Of a DNA stretch of 29,234 nt, positions 1 through 23,908 are shown in pieces. A program made the translations under genes and the position numbers. This DNA comes from a virus. Every line of letters begins with the position of its first letter. The first letter of the stretch is position 1. Below the pieces are notes generated by a model that worked only from the letters and a program-made list of their open reading frames with translations, did no database searches and was not told the origin of the DNA. The DNA is taken from IMG/VR virus record IMGVR_UViG_3300027749_000390, positions 1-29,234 of that record, one strand, 5' to 3'.

Positions 1-806
1 TGTGGAGGATTCCCAATAAGGACGCAGAAGGCGGTTTTATTGAGATACCCGTATCAAAAGCGGCTGCTATCCTTGGTCAAGGTAGTGCTATCCATGAAAA
101 CGCTCGCAAACTGAAAGCAGAACGAGCCGATTTTGAAGAATATGAGTCAAGACGCAAGTCTGAACTAGATGGATTGCAGATTGGTTTAGAGTTAACAGTT
201 ATTCCGCAGCTTCAAGGAGCAGCAGACGAACTAATAACCCTTCAGCAATATAACCAGCAATGGCGGCAAATCTACGACAGTGCGACTTCTGAAGTGCAGC
301 GTAGCGAGGCTGAAGCAGCAATGCGACAGAACGCTAAGTTAATTGAAGAAAAGTCGCAGTTCATTCAAGCGAATCGTCCGAAAATTGACTATTTTTATAA
401 TCATAGAGGCCAACAGGTTAGGCAACAACTAGAAGCTGCCCGACAAAACTTCTCTGATAAAGAACTAGCCAATAAAGCCAACTTTAACGAACTTCGTGAA
501 AAGCTGGCAAAGGACTGGAAAGGTGCTAATGCAGGTTTTGTTCCTGGTGTGCCAAACATTGATTTGGTGTCCAGTGATGAATATCTGTTGGGATTGATCC
601 GAGATGGAATGAAATTCCGTGAAGGACCCAAAGTGCGAAATGTTGGAGGTTCGCTGGCTGCTGCTAGTAAACCAACATCACGAGCCAAAACTGCACCTGA
701 AGATAAGACTACAGAACTTCAAAAGAAGGCAAATTCGGGCGACAAGTCTGCGGCCCGTGATCTTTTGGCAACAATGTTGGCGGCAAACAAAACACGCCGC
801 CGTTAA
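1..806 (+). CDS. Scaffolding / capsid assembly-like protein, 5' end missing
   Basis: The reading frame is open from position 3, so the true start lies before the window; TTG at 174 is only an internal codon. About 267 residues are visible. The visible part is rich in Q, E, K, R and A, with long predicted helical stretches (for example around RQQLEAARQNFSDK), and ends in a basic NKTRRR tail. No enzymatic motif is visible. It ends 17 nt before the major capsid gene, which is where tailed phages usually encode the scaffold, and helical charged composition with a basic C-terminus suits a capsid-binding scaffold. The role is therefore inferred mainly from position and composition. It could instead be another head-assembly protein. 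Confidence 0.6.
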   Translation, partial: WRIPNKDAEGGFIEIPVSKAAAILGQGSAIHENARKLKAERADFEEYESRRKSELDGLQIGLELTVIPQLQGAADELITLQQYNQQWRQIYDSATSEVQRSEAEAAMRQNAKLIEEKSQFIQANRPKIDYFYNHRGQQVRQQLEAARQNFSDKELANKANFNELREKLAKDWKGANAGFVPGVPNIDLVSSDEYLLGLIRDGMKFREGPKVRNVGGSLAAASKPTSRAKTAPEDKTTELQKKANSGDKSAARDLLATMLAANKTRRR

Positions 807-823
807 TCTTTAGGAGTTTTATT

Positions 824-1981
824 ATGGCTACTATCACCTCTGCCGCACTAGGCAATGGTAATGGTTCGTACACAACGGACATCGTGGTTAAGGACTTGGA
901 CTTGACCGTTTCTAACTATGTTAAAGACCGCACTCCGGTTACCAACATGGCAATGAGCAAGAAGCGCAAAGTCAACTCGACTCTGCACATCTGGCCCAAT
1001 GACTATTTCCGTGTTCCCGCTTTGAATGCAAAGTTGGAAGGTGCTTCGGTTGCTGCATCTGATGCCGCTTCTAACACCCGTTCTAACTTGGGTAACTACA
1101 CCCAGATTTTCACAACCACAATCGGTGCTACTGGTACTGCTCGTGCTGTGGAACAGGCTGGTGGTGATCCCCAGGCATATCAAGAAGTCAAGCAGTTGAC
1201 TGAGATTATGTTTGACGTTGAACTCCAGATGCTTCGTGCTGATGGCGCTTCGATCAAATACTCTGGTCAATCCGCTTCGCAAGGCTCTTCGCCCAACAAT
1301 GGTCGCCGTTTCGGTTCGCTGTTTGCCTTTGCTGGAACTCGTTCCGGTAACGACACAGACGGCACTTCGGTTCTGAACCTGGCTTCGTCTGATGGTACTG
1401 ACACCACAACCGCTACTGACACCAACACTCCGTTCAACGGCGTATTGGCTAATGCCGGTTTGGGTTATTTCACCTTCAGCACTGGTGTGACGCTGCAGCA
1501 ATTCAGCCCGTACCTGTACAAGCAGTTGGTTACTGTTGCTGAGCAACGTTTCAACGCCAAGATCACCAACATGGTGGTTCCAACGTCGATGCGTACTCAC
1601 ATCAGCGACATGATGCCTACCAGCCGTTCGATCAACCGTTTTAACCCTGCTGACAAGGGCGACACGATTGGTACTTACGAGGGTGACTTCAACTACACCT
1701 ATCAGATCGACGATTCGTGGGTCATGGATCAAACCGGTTCGGATAACACCTCCGCTTTGTTTATGAACCCTGACGTTATCCAGTGGGGTTCGTTGCGTGA
1801 ACTGGGACCAAACAATGAAGTTTTCAGCAATGCTGACGCTTCGTTGGACCAGTACATCATGGAAGGCACTTTGATTGTGCGTAACCCCGCAGGTGTGGGC
1901 GTTCTCGCTGCAATCAGCCCGACTGGCGCTGCTGTTACCGGACCCCGTCCGAGCGCACAGGTTAAGCGTTACCTGGCCTAA
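824..1981 (+). CDS. Major capsid protein, SU10-type (DUF5309-like), HK97 fold expected
   Basis: This 385-aa protein matches the pattern I know for the SU10-like major capsid family (DUF5309). It has an early DRTPVTNMAMSKKRKV segment (residues about 35-50), a W-x-N-D-Y-F strand, LEGASVAASDAASNTRSN, then NYTQIFTTTIGATGTARAVE (residues about 90-110) and the helix containing EVKQLTEIMFDVELQMLRAD. It would form the icosahedral shell. The start follows an AGGAG ribosome-binding site 8 nt upstream. The middle holds a Ser/Thr/Asp-rich stretch (residues about 185-205) that may be a surface loop. Two stem-loops directly follow the stop codon, as expected for a highly expressed capsid gene. The family is recalled from memory, not searched. 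Confidence 0.88.
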   Translation: MATITSAALGNGNGSYTTDIVVKDLDLTVSNYVKDRTPVTNMAMSKKRKVNSTLHIWPNDYFRVPALNAKLEGASVAASDAASNTRSNLGNYTQIFTTTIGATGTARAVEQAGGDPQAYQEVKQLTEIMFDVELQMLRADGASIKYSGQSASQGSSPNNGRRFGSLFAFAGTRSGNDTDGTSVLNLASSDGTDTTTATDTNTPFNGVLANAGLGYFTFSTGVTLQQFSPYLYKQLVTVAEQRFNAKITNMVVPTSMRTHISDMMPTSRSINRFNPADKGDTIGTYEGDFNYTYQIDDSWVMDQTGSDNTSALFMNPDVIQWGSLRELGPNNEVFSNADASLDQYIMEGTLIVRNPAGVGVLAAISPTGAAVTGPRPSAQVKRYLA

Positions 1982-1998
1982 ACCTCTTCGTAGGTTTT
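1980..1998 (+). terminator. Stem-loop overlapping the capsid stop codon
   Basis: AAACCT (1980-1985) pairs with AGGTTT (1992-1997) around the loop CTTCGT, and the 3' arm ends in a run of four T. The 6-bp stem with a UUCG-containing loop could be a weak intrinsic terminator or a 3'-end stabilising hairpin for capsid mRNA. The T run is short, so read-through into the next gene is likely. Confidence 0.5.
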
Positions 1999-2001
1999 CT
2001 G

Positions 2002-2027
2002 AAGGGAATCTCGAAAGGGGTTCCCTT
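2002..2027 (+). other. Second stem-loop between capsid gene and next ORF
   Basis: AAGGGAA (2002-2008) is perfectly complementary to TTCCCTT (2021-2027), with a 12-nt loop TCTCGAAAGGGG. It lies 4 nt after the first hairpin and ends shortly before the start of the next gene. There is no T tract, so an RNA-stability or translational-control element fits better than a terminator. Confidence 0.45.
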
Positions 2028-2048
2028 TGGAAAGACATGGAGCAAAGT

Positions 2049-2555
2049 ATGGAACTAAATCTAAACAATGAAGAAGCCAAGGTCAATGAGGACTATTACC
2101 TCAAAGGCAATCTTGAGGCTGGCATTGAAGGTGCATTGTTAAAGAATGACAAGATGTTCAATGAGATCAAGTCTGGCACTTGGTCCCAAACCTTTAACAC
2201 CAAAAATATTGACTACAAGATTGGTGCTGTTGATGGCGAATGTTATGTTCAATATAGCCAAAAAAACGTAGAAGCAATTAAACAGTCTTGCAAAGAACGG
2301 CGTGAGTTTTACAAAGAGCATGGCACAGACAACCCTTTCTTTGCTGGAACATTCCATGCAATGGAGTTGCCTAAGTGTTTTGCCCATGAGATTAGTTCCA
2401 AGTGGTTTAACAACCGCCCTTGGGAGTTAATTAAGCAGGTAAAAGCAGACAAGATTCTGTTTTACGCTATTGTCAACGAATATTATTCTGACTTTGTATG
2501 TCACCCTACGGGTAAAATACCTTTGCCCTATAATCCAGCTATTCCGACAAAGTAA
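2049..2555 (+). CDS. Hypothetical protein between capsid and adaptor genes
   Basis: I do not recognise this 168-aa protein. The frame is open further upstream into the capsid gene, but ATG 2049 has GGAG at 2039-2042 with a 6-nt spacer, the best start signal. ATG 2037 (four residues longer) is the alternative, with only a GGAAAG-like site. The protein is hydrophilic and mixed-charge, with a short N-terminal acidic segment, scattered Cys (in DGECYV, KQSCKE, PKCFAHE, DFVCHP) and many aromatics in the second half (WFNNRPWELI, AIVNEYYSDF). No signal peptide or membrane segment is evident. Its place in the head gene cluster suggests a capsid accessory or assembly role, which is only inference. Confidence 0.75.
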   Translation: MELNLNNEEAKVNEDYYLKGNLEAGIEGALLKNDKMFNEIKSGTWSQTFNTKNIDYKIGAVDGECYVQYSQKNVEAIKQSCKERREFYKEHGTDNPFFAGTFHAMELPKCFAHEISSKWFNNRPWELIKQVKADKILFYAIVNEYYSDFVCHPTGKIPLPYNPAIPTK

Positions 2556-2564
2556 GGAACGAAC

Positions 2565-3548
2565 ATGGCCCTTTTCATCCAATCCGCTAACGCTTTGGTT
2601 AGCCGAGTAGCACAATGGGTAGGGGCCATTCCTTCTTCCATCGGTATTAACGCTACGGCGATTAATACAACTACCGGCGTTATCACCACAGCTTCTTCTG
2701 CTGTTGGAACAGTTCTTGTTGGTGATTTTATTGGCCCGACTGTTACAGGCCCATATACGGCTGTAATGGCTGTAAGCAGCACAACCATCACAGTCTACGA
2801 TCCGGACGGGATTTGGACCGGTGTAAGCCTTCCTACAGCCATTCTTAAACTGCCTACCCAGTCTTGCATTGAGATTCTGGGTTGTATCCAGATGGCAGAG
2901 TTAAAAATGCGTACTTTGGAACTGCCTTCGCTGCGTACCAATCCCTACGATCCGACAAACCCTTCTATCTTGACTGTCAATGCACAAGGCTTGGCTCCTA
3001 TCCCTTCGGATATGAATATGCCAATTCTTTTCTTTCAAGAAACTTACAGCACAACGGCTCCGTCTACCACAGGTAATGTTGGCCCTTGGATTATTTATGA
3101 CCGAGTTGGTGACCGAGAGATTATTCGTCGCCGAATGATTGATCAGTTGTACGTCAAACCTTTTGGAGTGCCACGGGTTATTCGTGCTTCGTTCTCTGAA
3201 GTTGGCCCAAATTATGTATTTACGCCTAATCCTGGTGAAAATACGATTATTAAAGCCTATTATCAGCAAACATTTCCGTTTTTGTTTAGCCCAACCGCTG
3301 ATACATTAAATCCTATTGTTCAGAATAACGCAGTATTGTCTTCGTTCCCAGAAGGTTACTTTTATGGTACTTTGTGGGCTTATTACGATAAGAATAAGAA
3401 TACAGAAGAAGCACAGAAATGGATTGCACGATTTGATGATGCGTATGGCCTGATTGAAGACCAAAACTTTAAAGGTAAATGGCGTGGTGGAGATCAGCAC
3501 TTAACAAGTGAATTCCAGCCCCGTAACTACCGCTATTCTTTTAAATAG
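2565..3548 (+). CDS. Head-tail adaptor / tail-tube-A-like virion protein
   Basis: This 327-aa protein starts after an AAGGA site (2554-2558) with good spacing. Its N-terminal 90 residues are a Thr/Ala/Val/Ile-rich beta-type region. The remainder carries a helical motif, then PEGYFYGTLWAYYDKNKNTE and WIARFDDAYGLIED near residues 270-310. This arrangement (small-residue start, Y-x-x-L-x-A-Y helix, then W-x-x-R-x-x-x-x-Y) is what I associate with podovirus adaptor proteins that dock under the portal. Its position between the capsid gene and the fibre genes agrees. The alternative is a head decoration or closure protein. Assignment rests on pattern recall and context. Confidence 0.5.
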   Translation: MALFIQSANALVSRVAQWVGAIPSSIGINATAINTTTGVITTASSAVGTVLVGDFIGPTVTGPYTAVMAVSSTTITVYDPDGIWTGVSLPTAILKLPTQSCIEILGCIQMAELKMRTLELPSLRTNPYDPTNPSILTVNAQGLAPIPSDMNMPILFFQETYSTTAPSTTGNVGPWIIYDRVGDREIIRRRMIDQLYVKPFGVPRVIRASFSEVGPNYVFTPNPGENTIIKAYYQQTFPFLFSPTADTLNPIVQNNAVLSSFPEGYFYGTLWAYYDKNKNTEEAQKWIARFDDAYGLIEDQNFKGKWRGGDQHLTSEFQPRNYRYSFK

Positions 3549-3556
3549 GAAGCAAT

Positions 3557-6500
3557 ATGGCTACTGGTGGTCTTTACGGCAGCACTTCTACCGGCACAGT
3601 TGCTCCACAGTCCGGTTCAGAGTCTATTGGGCTGTATGGAAACAATACAGTTTTTGGTGGAACCTACTTTGAGTGGTTTATCTTCCAAGATGCGGCAATC
3701 CAACCAGCTACTCCCACGGGAGGTTCTTGGAGTTTTACAACCAATGTCGGTACACCACCTACCGGTTGGTCAAATACGCCTCCCACTAGTCCTGCTTATA
3801 AAGTTTGGATTTCTATTGCTTTGGTTAACTCCAAAGGAAATGGAACGCTAACCTGGTCTATTCCTGGTCAACTTGTAAGTCCTGCTGGTAGCGGAACAGT
3901 TACCAATGTATCTGCTCTTACGCTAGGAACTTCTGGTACAGACGTTTCCTCCACTGTAGCCAATAGCACTACAACGCCGGTTATCACTCTTAATCTGCCT
4001 ACAGCCTCTGCCACTAACCGAGGTTTGCTAAGTGCAGCGGATTGGACTACGTTTAACAATAAAGGTTCTGGCGCTGTTACCAGCGTAACTGCTACTGCTC
4101 CTCTGGCCTCTTCCGGTGGGGCAACACCTAATCTGACAATTACCGCAGCAAATAGCACTACAAGCGGTTATTTGTCTAGCACAGACTGGAATACGTTTAA
4201 CAACAAGCAACCTGCTGGTTCGTACTTGGTGTCCGGTGGGGCTCTTGGTACTCCGTCTTCTGGCACATTGACTAACGCCACTGGATTGCCACTTACTACC
4301 GGCGTAACAGGACTGCTCCCAATAGCAAATGGTGGTACAAACGCCTCGACTGCTGCTGGTGCATTGACAAATCTTGGCGCTTATCCTGCAAGCAATCCTT
4401 CTGGATACACATCAAACACTGGAACAGTAACTTCGGTTGCCTTGTCTGGTGGTACGACTGGATTGACCACTTCTGGTGGCCCAATTACAACCAGCGGAAC
4501 AATTACTCTTGCTGGAACTTTGGCAGTTGCTAATGGCGGTACTGGAACTACTACACCTTCATTGGTGGCTGGAACCAACATCACAATTAGCGGAACTTGG
4601 CCTAATCAAACTATTAACTCCACTGCAATTGGAGGCGGTACAGTTACTCTTGTATCCACAGGAACGGGATTGACTGGTGGTCCAATCACCACAACCGGAA
4701 CAATCTCTCTTGCAAACACAACAGTAACTGCCGGTACTTACACCGCTGCAAACATCACTGTTGACGCTCAAGGCCGTATTACAGCAGCAGCCAATGGCTC
4801 TGGTGGTGGTGGTGGAACAGTTACCTCGGTGGCATTAAGCGCACCAGCTTTCCTTACTGTAAGCGGAAGTCCTGTTACTACATCTGGAACATTGGCTCTT
4901 TCGTACTCAGGTACGGCTCTTCCAGTGGCTAATGGTGGTACAGGTGTAACTACTTCAACAGGCTCTGGATCGGTTGTTTTGTCTACTGGTCCTTCTTTGG
5001 GTAGTGCAACTGTTTCCGATTACGAAACATTTACAAGCGTTTCTGCTCCAACATATACAGCAGGACGTATTTGGTACGATTCAACACAAAAAGCATTGTC
5101 GTATTACAACGACATAACCAATAACACAATTCATATTGGTCAAGAAACGCAATTAAAAGTACACAACAACACTGGATCAACCATTACAAAAGGTTCTCCG
5201 GTTTACGTTACTTCTACATCTAGTGGATTTTCATATCCAAATATTGCTCTTGCAAAAGCAGATACATTGACAACAGGAAATTGTATTGGTTTGGTTAACC
5301 AGGACATTGCCTCTGGTGCAGATGGATATGTAGTTATTTCTGGTCTTGTTACTGGAGTAAGCACTGGATCGTTTACTGTTGGCGACATTCTTTATGTAAG
5401 CCCGTATTCTGCGGGTCAATTGATGAACACATTTCCTCCAACGGGATATGCTGTTCGTATTGGTGTGGTTGCTTATGCAAATTCTCCAAATGGAAACATT
5501 TATGTAAATCAATCAAATGCTTTTGTTCAATCGTCTGCTATTGTTGGTGCTGTTGCAATTGCAAATGGTGGTACAGGTCAGACCACAGCAGCCGCAGCAA
5601 TTACTGCATTGGCTGGAACGCAAACTTCTGGCTACTACCTTCGTTCCAATGGTACAAATACGTTACTAGCTGCTATCCAGGCCGCTGATGTACCAACACT
5701 CAATCAAAATACAACCGGAACTGCTGCCAACATTACGGCTACTAGCAATTCCAGTCTGACAACTCTGAGTTCTTTAAGTTTGCCTGGTTCGCAAGTTACC
5801 GGCAACATTAGCGGAAATGCAGCAAACGTAACAGGCACTGTAGCCATAGCAAATGGTGGCACTGGACAAACTACTGCATCTGCTGCGTTTAATGCTCTTT
5901 CCCCAATCACTACTACCGGTGATTTGATTATCGGCAATGGTTCTGGGACTGCTACTCGCCTTGGTATTGGCGCAAATACTTATGTCCTTACTTCTAACGG
6001 CACAACGGCAACATGGGCTGCTGCTGCAAGCGGTTCTGGAACAGTAACCTCTGTTACCGCTGGTACAGGACTTACTGGTGGAACAATCACCACTAGCGGC
6101 ACAATTGCACTTGCTACTACTGCTGTAACGGCTGGAAGCTACACAAGCACAAACATCACAGTTGATGCTTATGGACGCATTACTTCTGCTTCCAATGGTT
6201 CTGGCGGTGGAGGCGGTGGCACTACTTATGTACGCACTTCATTTACTGCTACTGCTGGACAAACCGCATTTGTTGTAAATTACACAGTTGGTGCTTTGCA
6301 AGTATTCCTAAACGGCGTATTGTTGGCAACATCTGATTACACAGCAACAAGCGGAACAGGATTTACATTAGCAGTTGCAGCGGGTGTAGGTGATATTGTT
6401 GAAGCTGCTGCATTTAACTCTGGCGCTTACACCAGAACATCATTTACAGCAACTTCTGGACAAACAGCGTTTTCTGCAACTTACACAGTTGGCTATCTGC

Positions 6501-22256: not shown

Positions 22257-23210
22257 ATGATTTCTGAAGAACAGTTTTTGGAATCTTGGAATAGATTAAA
22301 GTCTGCAAAGTTAGTGGCAGACGAACTGGGCGTTACGGAAAGAGCAGTGCATGGAAGACGTAGGAGACAAGAAGAAAAGCATGGCAACGTTTTACCAATA
22401 AACGATCAACGTTGGGTTTACCGGCAGCATATCTTTCCGACTGCATTGGATTTGGGGATAGAAAATGGCACAGTCATCGTTTTTTCGGACGCTCACTTTT
22501 GGCCTGGTATTCGTTCAACGGCATTTAAAGCGCTGTTATATGCAATTGAAACGTATGCCCCCAAAGCAGTTATTTGTAATGGGGATGCCTTTGATGGCGC
22601 TGCTATATCTCGTCACCCGCCTATGGGTTGGGAAAACCTTCCATCTGTAATCCAAGAGTTAAATACTTGCAAAGAAATGCTGGGGGAGGTGTCAGAAACT
22701 GCCAAACAAGCCAGACGAAATGTAAAGCTAATTTGGACATTGGGTAACCATGATGCGAGATTTGCTGCGAGATTGGCATCCAATGCACCACAGTATGTTC
22801 AGACCCCAGGATTTAAACTGGAGGACCACTTTGAGCAATGGAAGTTTGCCTGGTCGGTGTGGTTGACCAAGGAAGTAATTGTCAAACATCGGTACAAAGG
22901 CGGGGTTCATGCCACCCACAACAACACTGTTGGAGCCGGTACAAGCATCGTTACAGGCCATCTACATAGCCTGAAGGTCACTCCTTATGCTGATTACAAC
23001 GGAAACCGATTTGGGGTGGATACAGGCACTTTGGCAGACCCTTATGGTCCACAGTTTTCGTACTCAGAACACAATCCGCTAAACCATCGTTCGGGATTTG
23101 CCTTACTTACGTTTAAAGATGGTCAATTGTTGTGGCCTGAACTGTTTCATGTTTGGGCCAAAGACCAGGTTGAGTTTAGGGGTGAGGTAATAAAAGTAGG
23201 CGGTTATTAG
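22257..23210 (+). CDS. Metallophosphoesterase with N-terminal helix-turn-helix
   Basis: ATG 22257 follows AAGGA with a short spacer, 8 nt after the lysozyme stop; upstream in-frame codons overlap the lysozyme gene and are not used. Residues 1-42 form an HTH-like unit (FLESWNRLKSAKLVADELGV then TERAVHGRRRRQEE). The rest is a calcineurin-like metallophosphoesterase with all metal motifs: D78-x-H80, G109-D110, GNHD 163-166, His218 in GGVHATH, and GHLH 234-237. The final residue is 317. Such phage enzymes are usually called nucleases or phosphodiesterases without a defined substrate. It is the last late gene, followed by a hairpin that includes its stop codon. Confidence 0.85.
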   Translation: MISEEQFLESWNRLKSAKLVADELGVTERAVHGRRRRQEEKHGNVLPINDQRWVYRQHIFPTALDLGIENGTVIVFSDAHFWPGIRSTAFKALLYAIETYAPKAVICNGDAFDGAAISRHPPMGWENLPSVIQELNTCKEMLGEVSETAKQARRNVKLIWTLGNHDARFAARLASNAPQYVQTPGFKLEDHFEQWKFAWSVWLTKEVIVKHRYKGGVHATHNNTVGAGTSIVTGHLHSLKVTPYADYNGNRFGVDTGTLADPYGPQFSYSEHNPLNHRSGFALLTFKDGQLLWPELFHVWAKDQVEFRGEVIKVGGY

Positions 23211-23215
23211 CCGCC
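23199..23215. terminator. GC-rich hairpin at the convergent junction
   Basis: GGCGG pairs with CCGCC and the stem continues with a G-T wobble and a T-A pair, leaving a 3-nt loop. The stem overlaps the metallophosphoesterase stop codon TAG. Neither side has a long T tract, although the minus strand reads TACTTTTATT after it. It could be a weak terminator for the plus operon or for both converging transcripts. Confidence 0.5.
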
Positions 23216-23232
23216 CACTCTTATGGACAAAA

Positions 23233-23448
23233 TTAAAACTCGTATTCAATTTCGTCTTCGCACTCGTACCAGTCGTCCGACTCTTCGTCGTACCAGTACC
23301 ACACATCATTTTCCTCATCGAACCAATACGCCGTACCTTCGTCGTCGTACTCGTACTCTTCTTCGACTTCTTCGTCTTCAATGATCTCTTCAAAACCCAT
23401 TAGATCAAGCAAGTCCTCGAAATCAAAAACAATAGCAAACGTATACAT
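23233..23448 (-). CDS. Extremely acidic aromatic 71-aa protein (DNA-mimic candidate)
   Basis: ATG at 23448 follows GGGAG five nt upstream; longer in-frame forms extend into a stem-loop and are less likely. By my count the 71-aa product has 32 Asp/Glu residues and no Lys, Arg or His. The first third is a short hydrophobic helix (MYTFAIVFDFEDLLDLMGF). The rest is acidic runs and Trp/Tyr repeats (YWFDEENDVWYWYDEE, then SDDWYECEDE), with a W-x-x-DEE spacing. Acidic composition without basic residues is typical of DNA-mimic proteins that block restriction or repair enzymes, but similar acidic-aromatic proteins in phages have no proven role. It is the last gene of the minus operon. Confidence 0.7.
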   Translation of the reverse strand: MYTFAIVFDFEDLLDLMGFEEIIEDEEVEEEYEYDDEGTAYWFDEENDVWYWYDEESDDWYECEDEIEYEF

Positions 23449-23461
23449 AAAAACTCCCAAA

Positions 23462-23492
23462 ATGTGGTTACAGCAAGTCGCTGCACCCACAT
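23462..23492 (-). promoter_or_regulatory. Stem-loop in the leader of the acidic gene
   Basis: On the minus strand ATGTGG pairs with CCACAT, then a G-A mismatch, then TGCAGC pairs with GCTGTA (one G-U), around the loop GACTT. This 31-nt element is followed by TTT and then GGGAG-TTTTT-ATG of the acidic gene. It may act as a partial terminator between the upstream genes and the acidic gene, or a processing or translational-control hairpin. Confidence 0.6.
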
Positions 23493-23498
23493 CCTAGC

Positions 23499-23666
23499 CT
23501 ATTCTTTTGCGGTTTCCATGTCAGACAATAAGTCCTTTATAGCCAGCAAACATAGTTTTATACGTTGTAATTCTTCCTGCTGTTCTTGCATACGAATATA
23601 TGAATCTTTGCAGAAATTAGCCAAGTTTTCGTTGGACCAAGCACCAAAATTGGGCAAATCATTCAT
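23499..23666 (-). CDS. Small helical 55-aa protein
   Basis: This short frame begins ATG at 23666, sharing TAATG with the stop of the upstream gene, with AGGA seven nt before it; the stop is TAG. The product is MNDLPNFGAWSNENLANFC followed by a helical, probably coiled-coil segment (MQEQQEELQRIKLCLLAIKD). It has no membrane helix. Length is typical for the micro-genes of this block. I do not recognise a family. Translational coupling and the good Shine-Dalgarno site support it as a real gene. An overlapping plus-strand ORF is less likely because the strand's whole gene order here is minus. Confidence 0.65.
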   Translation of the reverse strand: MNDLPNFGAWSNENLANFCKDSYIRMQEQQEELQRIKLCLLAIKDLLSDMETAKE

Positions 23667-23908
23667 TACGTTTTCCTATTCGGTTTAGGACAGTTCTCCG
23701 GTATGTTGGCAACACACCATACTGCCTGTTCTCGTAATCCCTGTCGTGCTTCAAGCCATCTGTCTATGTAGACATCAGGCATAGAGGTTAATGCGTTTCT
23801 AATTGAATCCTTGTTGAGTTTAAGTAATTCGCCTATTTCATTTGCTGTCAGGCCATCTTCGTGCTGTTTAAGCACATTTCTGATGTCTGGATGCCTCGAT
23901 TTGCTCAA
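23666..23908 (-). CDS. Small winged-helix / HTH DNA-binding protein
   Basis: The 80-aa protein uses TTG at 23908, supported by AAGGA 8 nt upstream. Residues about 12-40 form a helix-turn-helix: VLKQHEDGLTANEIGELLKL then NKDSIRNALTSM. The segment PDVYIDRW and the ending VWCVANIPENCPKP resemble a small family found in Burkholderiales-associated phages (recalled, not searched). It overlaps the upstream gene by 41 nt, more than its neighbours. It may be a regulator of phage or host promoters. The late position in the operon and small size fit an accessory regulator. Other targets are possible. Confidence 0.72.
   Translation of the reverse strand: MSKSRHPDIRNVLKQHEDGLTANEIGELLKLNKDSIRNALTSMPDVYIDRWLEARQGLREQAVWCVANIPENCPKPNRKT

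Follow-up and report, generated by a model that had tools for sequence, protein, structure and literature searches.

The window, a virus contig of 29,234 bases analysed over its whole length, carries a single copy of a gene for a small and extremely acidic protein, which ends a minus-strand early operon and converges on a metallophosphoesterase gene (Table 1). The open reading frame begins with ATG at 23448-23446 and stops at 23235-23233, the plus strand of the same interval being interrupted by a stop codon; the translation is MYTFAIVFDFEDLLDLMGFEEIIEDEEVEEEYEYDDEGTAYWFDEENDVWYWYDEESDDWYECEDEIEYEF, and an identical protein is encoded at L017. An earlier, sequence-only reading had counted 32 Asp/Glu and no Lys, Arg or His among the 71 residues, and had described Trp and Tyr alternating with acidic runs; the minus-strand translation bears out both, with 18 Phe/Tyr/Trp and a core that reads EYEYDDEG / TAYWFDEEN / DVWYWYDEES / DDWYECED. 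The other genes of the window contain 8% Asp/Glu and 9% Lys/Arg/His (approximate values from rough gene calls), against which the binomial chance of at least 32 Asp/Glu in 71 residues is approximately 8e-17 and that of no Lys/Arg/His approximately 1e-3; the most acidic other stretch of 71 residues has a net charge of about -12 on the same rough gene calls.

Table 1. Features at and around the acidic gene of the window, with the basis of each assignment
Feature	Position	Strand	Basis
Acidic-aromatic protein ORF, 71 aa, net charge -32	23233-23448	-	Translation, relatives, purifying selection
Conserved acidic-aromatic core, codons 30-64, predicted four-stranded antiparallel beta-meander	23257-23361	-	Alignment, AlphaFold2
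Variable N-terminal part, codons 1-19, short hydrophobic/helical version	23392-23448	-	Alignment, AlphaFold2 models
-10-like hexamer TAGGAT	23491-23496	-	Leader alignment
Inner stem-loop GCAGC-GACTT-GCTGT, covarying across the family	23470-23484	-	Covariation, fold
Whole leader hairpin of the window member, -20.3 kcal/mol, z -5.4	23458-23496	-	Fold
Shine-Dalgarno-like GGGAG	23454-23458	-	Sequence
Terminator-like hairpin 3' of the acidic gene, shared with the end of the convergent phosphoesterase gene, -20.2 kcal/mol, z -5.2	23190-23224	-	Fold, sequence
Metallophosphoesterase (PHROG 221, Pfam Metallophos), convergent neighbour, last gene of the plus-strand late block	22260-23210	+	Profile matches
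55-aa protein, no function assigned, upstream neighbour	23499-23666	-	ORF, annotation
80-aa protein, helix-turn-helix-like by eye, frequent in the early operons of relatives	23666-23908	-	ORFs of the window and relatives

Some features of the surroundings may be recorded here. Early operons beside the acidic gene may encode as many as three diverged copies of the 80-residue protein in tandem (window, L018, L020, L031 and L055). The phosphoesterase has a weak excisionase-like match N-terminal to its domain (PHROG 9668, E 0.013) and relatives in at least 599 stretches in IMG/VR. No named phage record other than Caudoviricetes sp. MW202484 (Manatee Spring) is matched by the first 25 kb of the window; its DNA identity with positions 1-3879 is ~76%.

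The acidic ORF is a real gene and not an accident of composition, since its reading frame is shared by relatives, third codon positions hold 55-62% of the differences among them, and the median dN/dS of 0.13-0.19 indicates purifying selection. The protein is one of a large, previously undescribed family of small polyanionic proteins of phages: about 100 relatives were found in IMG/VR phage contigs, where a protein query gave 15 loci and a profile gave 64. Among 45 distinct aligned proteins the pattern E-x-Y...D-x-x-G-x-A-Y-W-x-D-x-E-N-x-V-x-Y-x-Y-D-x-x-x-D-x-W is invariant. The N-terminal part comes in three versions, i.e. the short form of the window protein, a form MEFTLTIDFGFGE...FWK that is modelled as a beta-hairpin plus a helix, and a diverged MLFTVSVDL type, which came to light through the leader described below. 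Homology across the main types rests on more than acidity: the diverged type matches the first family with a profile-profile E of 1e-15 and the family profile finds one match per record in 11 of 13 records (E down to 6.5e-7), with two of the 13 giving no match. Over 105 unique family proteins the net charge ranges from -18 to -53, Lys/Arg average about 2% and pairwise identity falls to 12%; the Asp/Glu fraction of 0.29-0.48 is partly a product of construction, since the collection was gathered in part with acidity filters (Asp/Glu above 0.20-0.28). The N-terminal module is absent in the window type and the aromatic core is absent in the type represented by L163. Two side observations concern variation: near-identical proteins at L088-L119 differ in their C-terminal acidic tails by whole EDEA units, in the manner of a length-variable repeat, and L186 and L195 encode a further acidic type, MIKLEISIAEYDW / MYKMEVNIGEYDF, on the strand convergent with the phosphoesterase.

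No convincing sequence match to the family was found in Pfam, PHROGs, NCBIfam or the PDB. HMM search of the 71-residue sequence against phage proteins, which had been proposed as a check, found family relatives, none with a named function, and the impression that the protein is unlike known DNA mimics holds in that neither a known mimic nor any other named protein was matched by sequence. A tblastn search found no relatives in named phages, a result of little weight because the low-complexity filter can mask such sequences. Annotation by homology thus overlooks a family of small phage proteins that is sizeable and has no name.

AlphaFold2 models built with the family alignment are of moderate confidence overall (the mean pLDDT is 67.5 in the window model, 70.2 in that of the longer type) and better in the core, with pLDDT 84-89 for residues 31-60 of the window model and about 84-91 for the core strands of both. 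The acidic-aromatic core is predicted to form one four-stranded antiparallel beta-meander (strands 32-34, 40-44, 49-54 and 59-62 in the window model). Structure prediction, also put forward with the sequence-only reading, thus gives a candidate fold at moderate pLDDT. Foldseek searches of the PDB with this moderate-confidence model returned no match below E 1.9; the list includes the OCRE domain of RBM10 (2mxw) at E 3.5. A second fold search returned single beta-propeller blades (Z 2.9-3.5 over ~35 residues), a likeness that is not evidence of kinship, and the lack of other folds among the matches carries no weight; a beta-propeller was rejected, since the model has a single four-stranded sheet and no ring of several blades. 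The best viral matches in Foldseek (BFVD), A0A6J5NEZ6, A0A6J7WGB1 and A0A6J7WIK2 of uncultured Caudovirales phage (35-41% identity, probability 1.00, E 1e-3 to 2e-2), are likely relatives; they are uncharacterised and unannotated.

Where a member has a leader, this block of ~50 nt immediately precedes the coding sequence: TANNAT is followed after a few nt by a 5-bp stem that closes a loop of ~5 nt, then by a T-rich stretch, and last come a Shine-Dalgarno sequence and the ATG. The T, A, A and T of TANNAT are invariant in 35 of 35 aligned leaders, and RNAalifold retains the inner stem only, three of its six pairs being changed on both sides. In a larger set of 72 unique leaders, which were selected for a TANNAT so that the hexamer is there by construction, 68 have all 5 bp of the stem, with compensatory changes, and four of the five pairs exist in more than one fully exchanged form. 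It is this covariation, and not energy, that argues for the hairpin, since for L067 and L095 the fold of the whole leader is not clearly better than that of shuffled sequences. When the hairpin pattern was used without protein information, 48 of the 49 viral contigs matched had an acidic-family gene behind it, the exception (L093) also being without TANNAT; the pattern recovered the diverged protein type, which was absent from its definition. A leader covariance model matched untrained sequences of the diverged type with E 1e-5 to 2e-4 and gave a single convincing site per locus; it found no match in relatives starting within ~11 nt of the phosphoesterase stop, and at all 19 matches with E<1 the acidic gene is on the strand convergent with the phosphoesterase. 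The leader thus provides a DNA-level handle on members with diverged proteins. A search of Rfam with window positions 23000-23700 gave nothing near a gathering score. Leaders of the same layout with an unrelated stem, TGGCA/TGCCA, occur at L186 and L195. An origin of the family in host genomes was rejected: no relative could be confirmed with the core profile in a genome collection, and all eight leader-pattern matches there were without a TANNAT at its proper site and without an acidic gene downstream.

The leader accompanies acidic genes that need a transcript of their own and is absent from those coupled to the phosphoesterase gene, which suggests that it drives expression of the acidic gene; it would then be a promoter plus a 5'-UTR hairpin. 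No -35 box was recognised in the leaders, despite TANNAT and a conserved upstream block, so the promoter reading is a weak one. The block TGTCA-N11/12-TA[AG]GAT lies directly at the acidic gene in 59 of its 63 matches (the match at L060 is at the same site, with one base change), and a general phage promoter was rejected, as the block is almost confined to this gene in the loci collected; the window leader keeps TAGGAT and is without the TGTCA block of many others. A sigma-54 reading of TTGCA was discarded on its spacing, judged by eye. A transcription attenuator or protein-binding operator, with the gene regulated by read-through, could also fit and is a possible, if less favoured, account: many leaders have a GC stem followed by ATTTTTA, a T-run follows the hairpin in most members, and in the predicted fold of the window leader TANNAT is able to pair with the T-run. 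However, across the 35 leaders the two free TANNAT positions change without a matching change in the T-run while T, A, A and T stay fixed, and the stem contains G-U pairs, as expected for RNA but not for a DNA palindrome. In either case the covarying stem is a regulatory element open to direct assay.

The genome position of the acidic gene differs from phage to phage, and the gene usually has its own leader. It may be convergent with the phosphoesterase gene and end the other strand's operon, as in the window; it may lie on the phosphoesterase strand with a gap and leader between; it may follow on that strand with its start -8 to +11 nt from the phosphoesterase stop, in which case the leader was not detected; or it may have the major capsid gene on one side and an opposed HNH gene on the other, in which case a terminator-like hairpin and T-run usually separate the capsid gene from the leader. 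The last two contexts share the protein type GEEYEYD..CYCWYD.EYDAWYWL.E.TGEWLLVEDDEADWGD. Downstream of 80 listed relatives of the phosphoesterase, 66 loci could be assessed, and in 58 of these an acidic aromatic ORF adjoins it, on the same strand in 38 cases and convergent in 20; a few of these ORFs need not be homologous, since the filter considered composition only, and the profile reaches several. A dedicated partner or antidote of the phosphoesterase was rejected, as the latter was not found in 11 capsid-context records, which are possibly incomplete, IMG/VR records being mostly fragments.

At the capsid site the order in IMG/VR contigs is capsid - acidic gene - HNH - next gene. The named phages Pag-Yong1, DSL-LC04 and HTVC023P, with capsid proteins 62-71% identical to those of the capsid-context phages, have neither an acidic nor an HNH gene right after the capsid gene; the gene next to it encodes a minor capsid, cement or hypothetical protein. 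An insertion between genes that are adjacent in relatives is thus seen here as presence versus absence, which could reflect gain or loss. Among the best 80 capsid relatives in IMG/VR an acidic ORF is present in three of 53 assessable loci and absent in 50, so that it is a minority trait at this site, and the comparison allows the gene's status as an accessory trait to be tested. The small HNH endonuclease gene (PHROG 3106/2255), on the opposite strand directly after the acidic gene (L026, L036, L067, L089, L095 and others), accompanies it at the capsid site almost always, and the two may travel together.

The sequence-only reading had placed the gene last in a run of early genes, where anti-defence proteins often sit. 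This describes the minus strand of the window and does not carry over to relatives, in which the gene lies behind the late-strand metallophosphoesterase or beside the major capsid gene; the early anti-defence position is therefore not a family property, and an early anti-defence island was rejected in that sense. The proposal of a DNA mimic or host-factor inhibitor accordingly loses its argument from position and keeps that from acidity, which proves family-wide. Negative charge is the trait that outlasts sequence divergence and the loss of half the protein, in a set gathered partly by charge. As acidity is kept while identity falls to 12% and either half can be lost, a polyanion mechanism like that of DNA mimics is favoured, and we put the probability that the protein acts by electrostatic mimicry at roughly 0.35, ahead of an assembly role, another host-directed function or peptide binding. 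The small aromatic beta-meander and acidic tails would hold a dense negative surface, which would bind to and block the face by which a basic protein of the host (or phage) contacts nucleic acids, in the manner of DNA mimics; the partner would thus be a nucleic-acid-binding protein. Set against this, known DNA mimics give no sequence match and the models are moderate (mean pLDDT 67-70), frequent late or capsid-adjacent transcription poorly fits inhibition of restriction at DNA entry, and virion, chaperone or ion-binding roles fit strong acidity too.

Of these other roles, that of a late accessory to virion assembly, e.g. an acidic chaperone or minor head component shielding a basic structural or DNA-packaging protein, would account for the many relatives in which the gene lies between the major capsid gene and the following structural genes, and for those coupled to the final gene of the late block. 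It is nevertheless unlikely, given that the named relatives are without the gene at the capsid site, that the window gene is on the early strand and that head and tail PHROGs give no meaningful score with any member. We think it about equally doubtful that the gene is a moron-like fitness gene with another host-directed action (e.g. superinfection exclusion or metabolic interference) and charge as a by-product; its being extra at the capsid site, with its own leader, on either strand and at several sites, fits such a gene, but no specific host target is indicated and charge outlasts both fold and sequence. Improbable to a greater degree is a WW/OCRE-type domain, in which an aromatic beta-meander grips a proline-rich or basic peptide and acid gives affinity. 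The predicted four-stranded meander with its aromatic strands and D-E-E-G/N/S turns is as such a domain would have it, and RBM10 OCRE is among the Foldseek matches, albeit at the E value given above; Pfam, however, is silent for WW and OCRE in ten family members even at E up to 10, the best matches among solved structures are the single propeller blades, and the meander is missing from some members. Returning to electrostatic mimicry, a broader and more tentative form of it would be a mobile 'polyanion cassette' in environmental phages, in which a conserved promoter and 5'-hairpin leader accompany a fast-evolving acidic protein of which only charge is required, exchanged among distant tailed-phage lineages and positions as a general-purpose electrostatic inhibitor.

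Comparison with known systems gives partial likenesses. As with phage morons, the acidic gene is present where relatives are without it, with a promoter-like element 5', on either strand, and in the window with a terminator-like hairpin 3'; it differs in that the promoter is putative and many acidic genes are coupled to the phosphoesterase without a leader. With OCRE and WW domains the family shares short Tyr/Trp-rich strands and acidic-glycine/asparagine turns, but it has no Pfam match, another repeat length (by eye) and far more acid. T7 Ocr, with 34 acidic and 6 basic residues among 116 according to PMC4872106, needs its acidic residues for activity (PMC4872106), which illustrates the principle only and says nothing on the window protein. 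Like the DNA mimics T7 Ocr and ArdA, the family proteins are small, strongly acidic, poor in basic residues and encoded by phages or mobile elements, and the strong excess of acidic over basic residues of Ocr, ArdA and DMP-type proteins is also found in the window protein and its family. The fold of Ocr is mainly helical. The acidic family, by contrast with Ocr and ArdA, is without a sequence match, has a predicted beta-meander, and lacks a conserved early, entry-linked position. To our knowledge DNA mimicry has not been described before in such a fold or in a late, capsid-adjacent setting, and if the charge reading is correct it would gain both.
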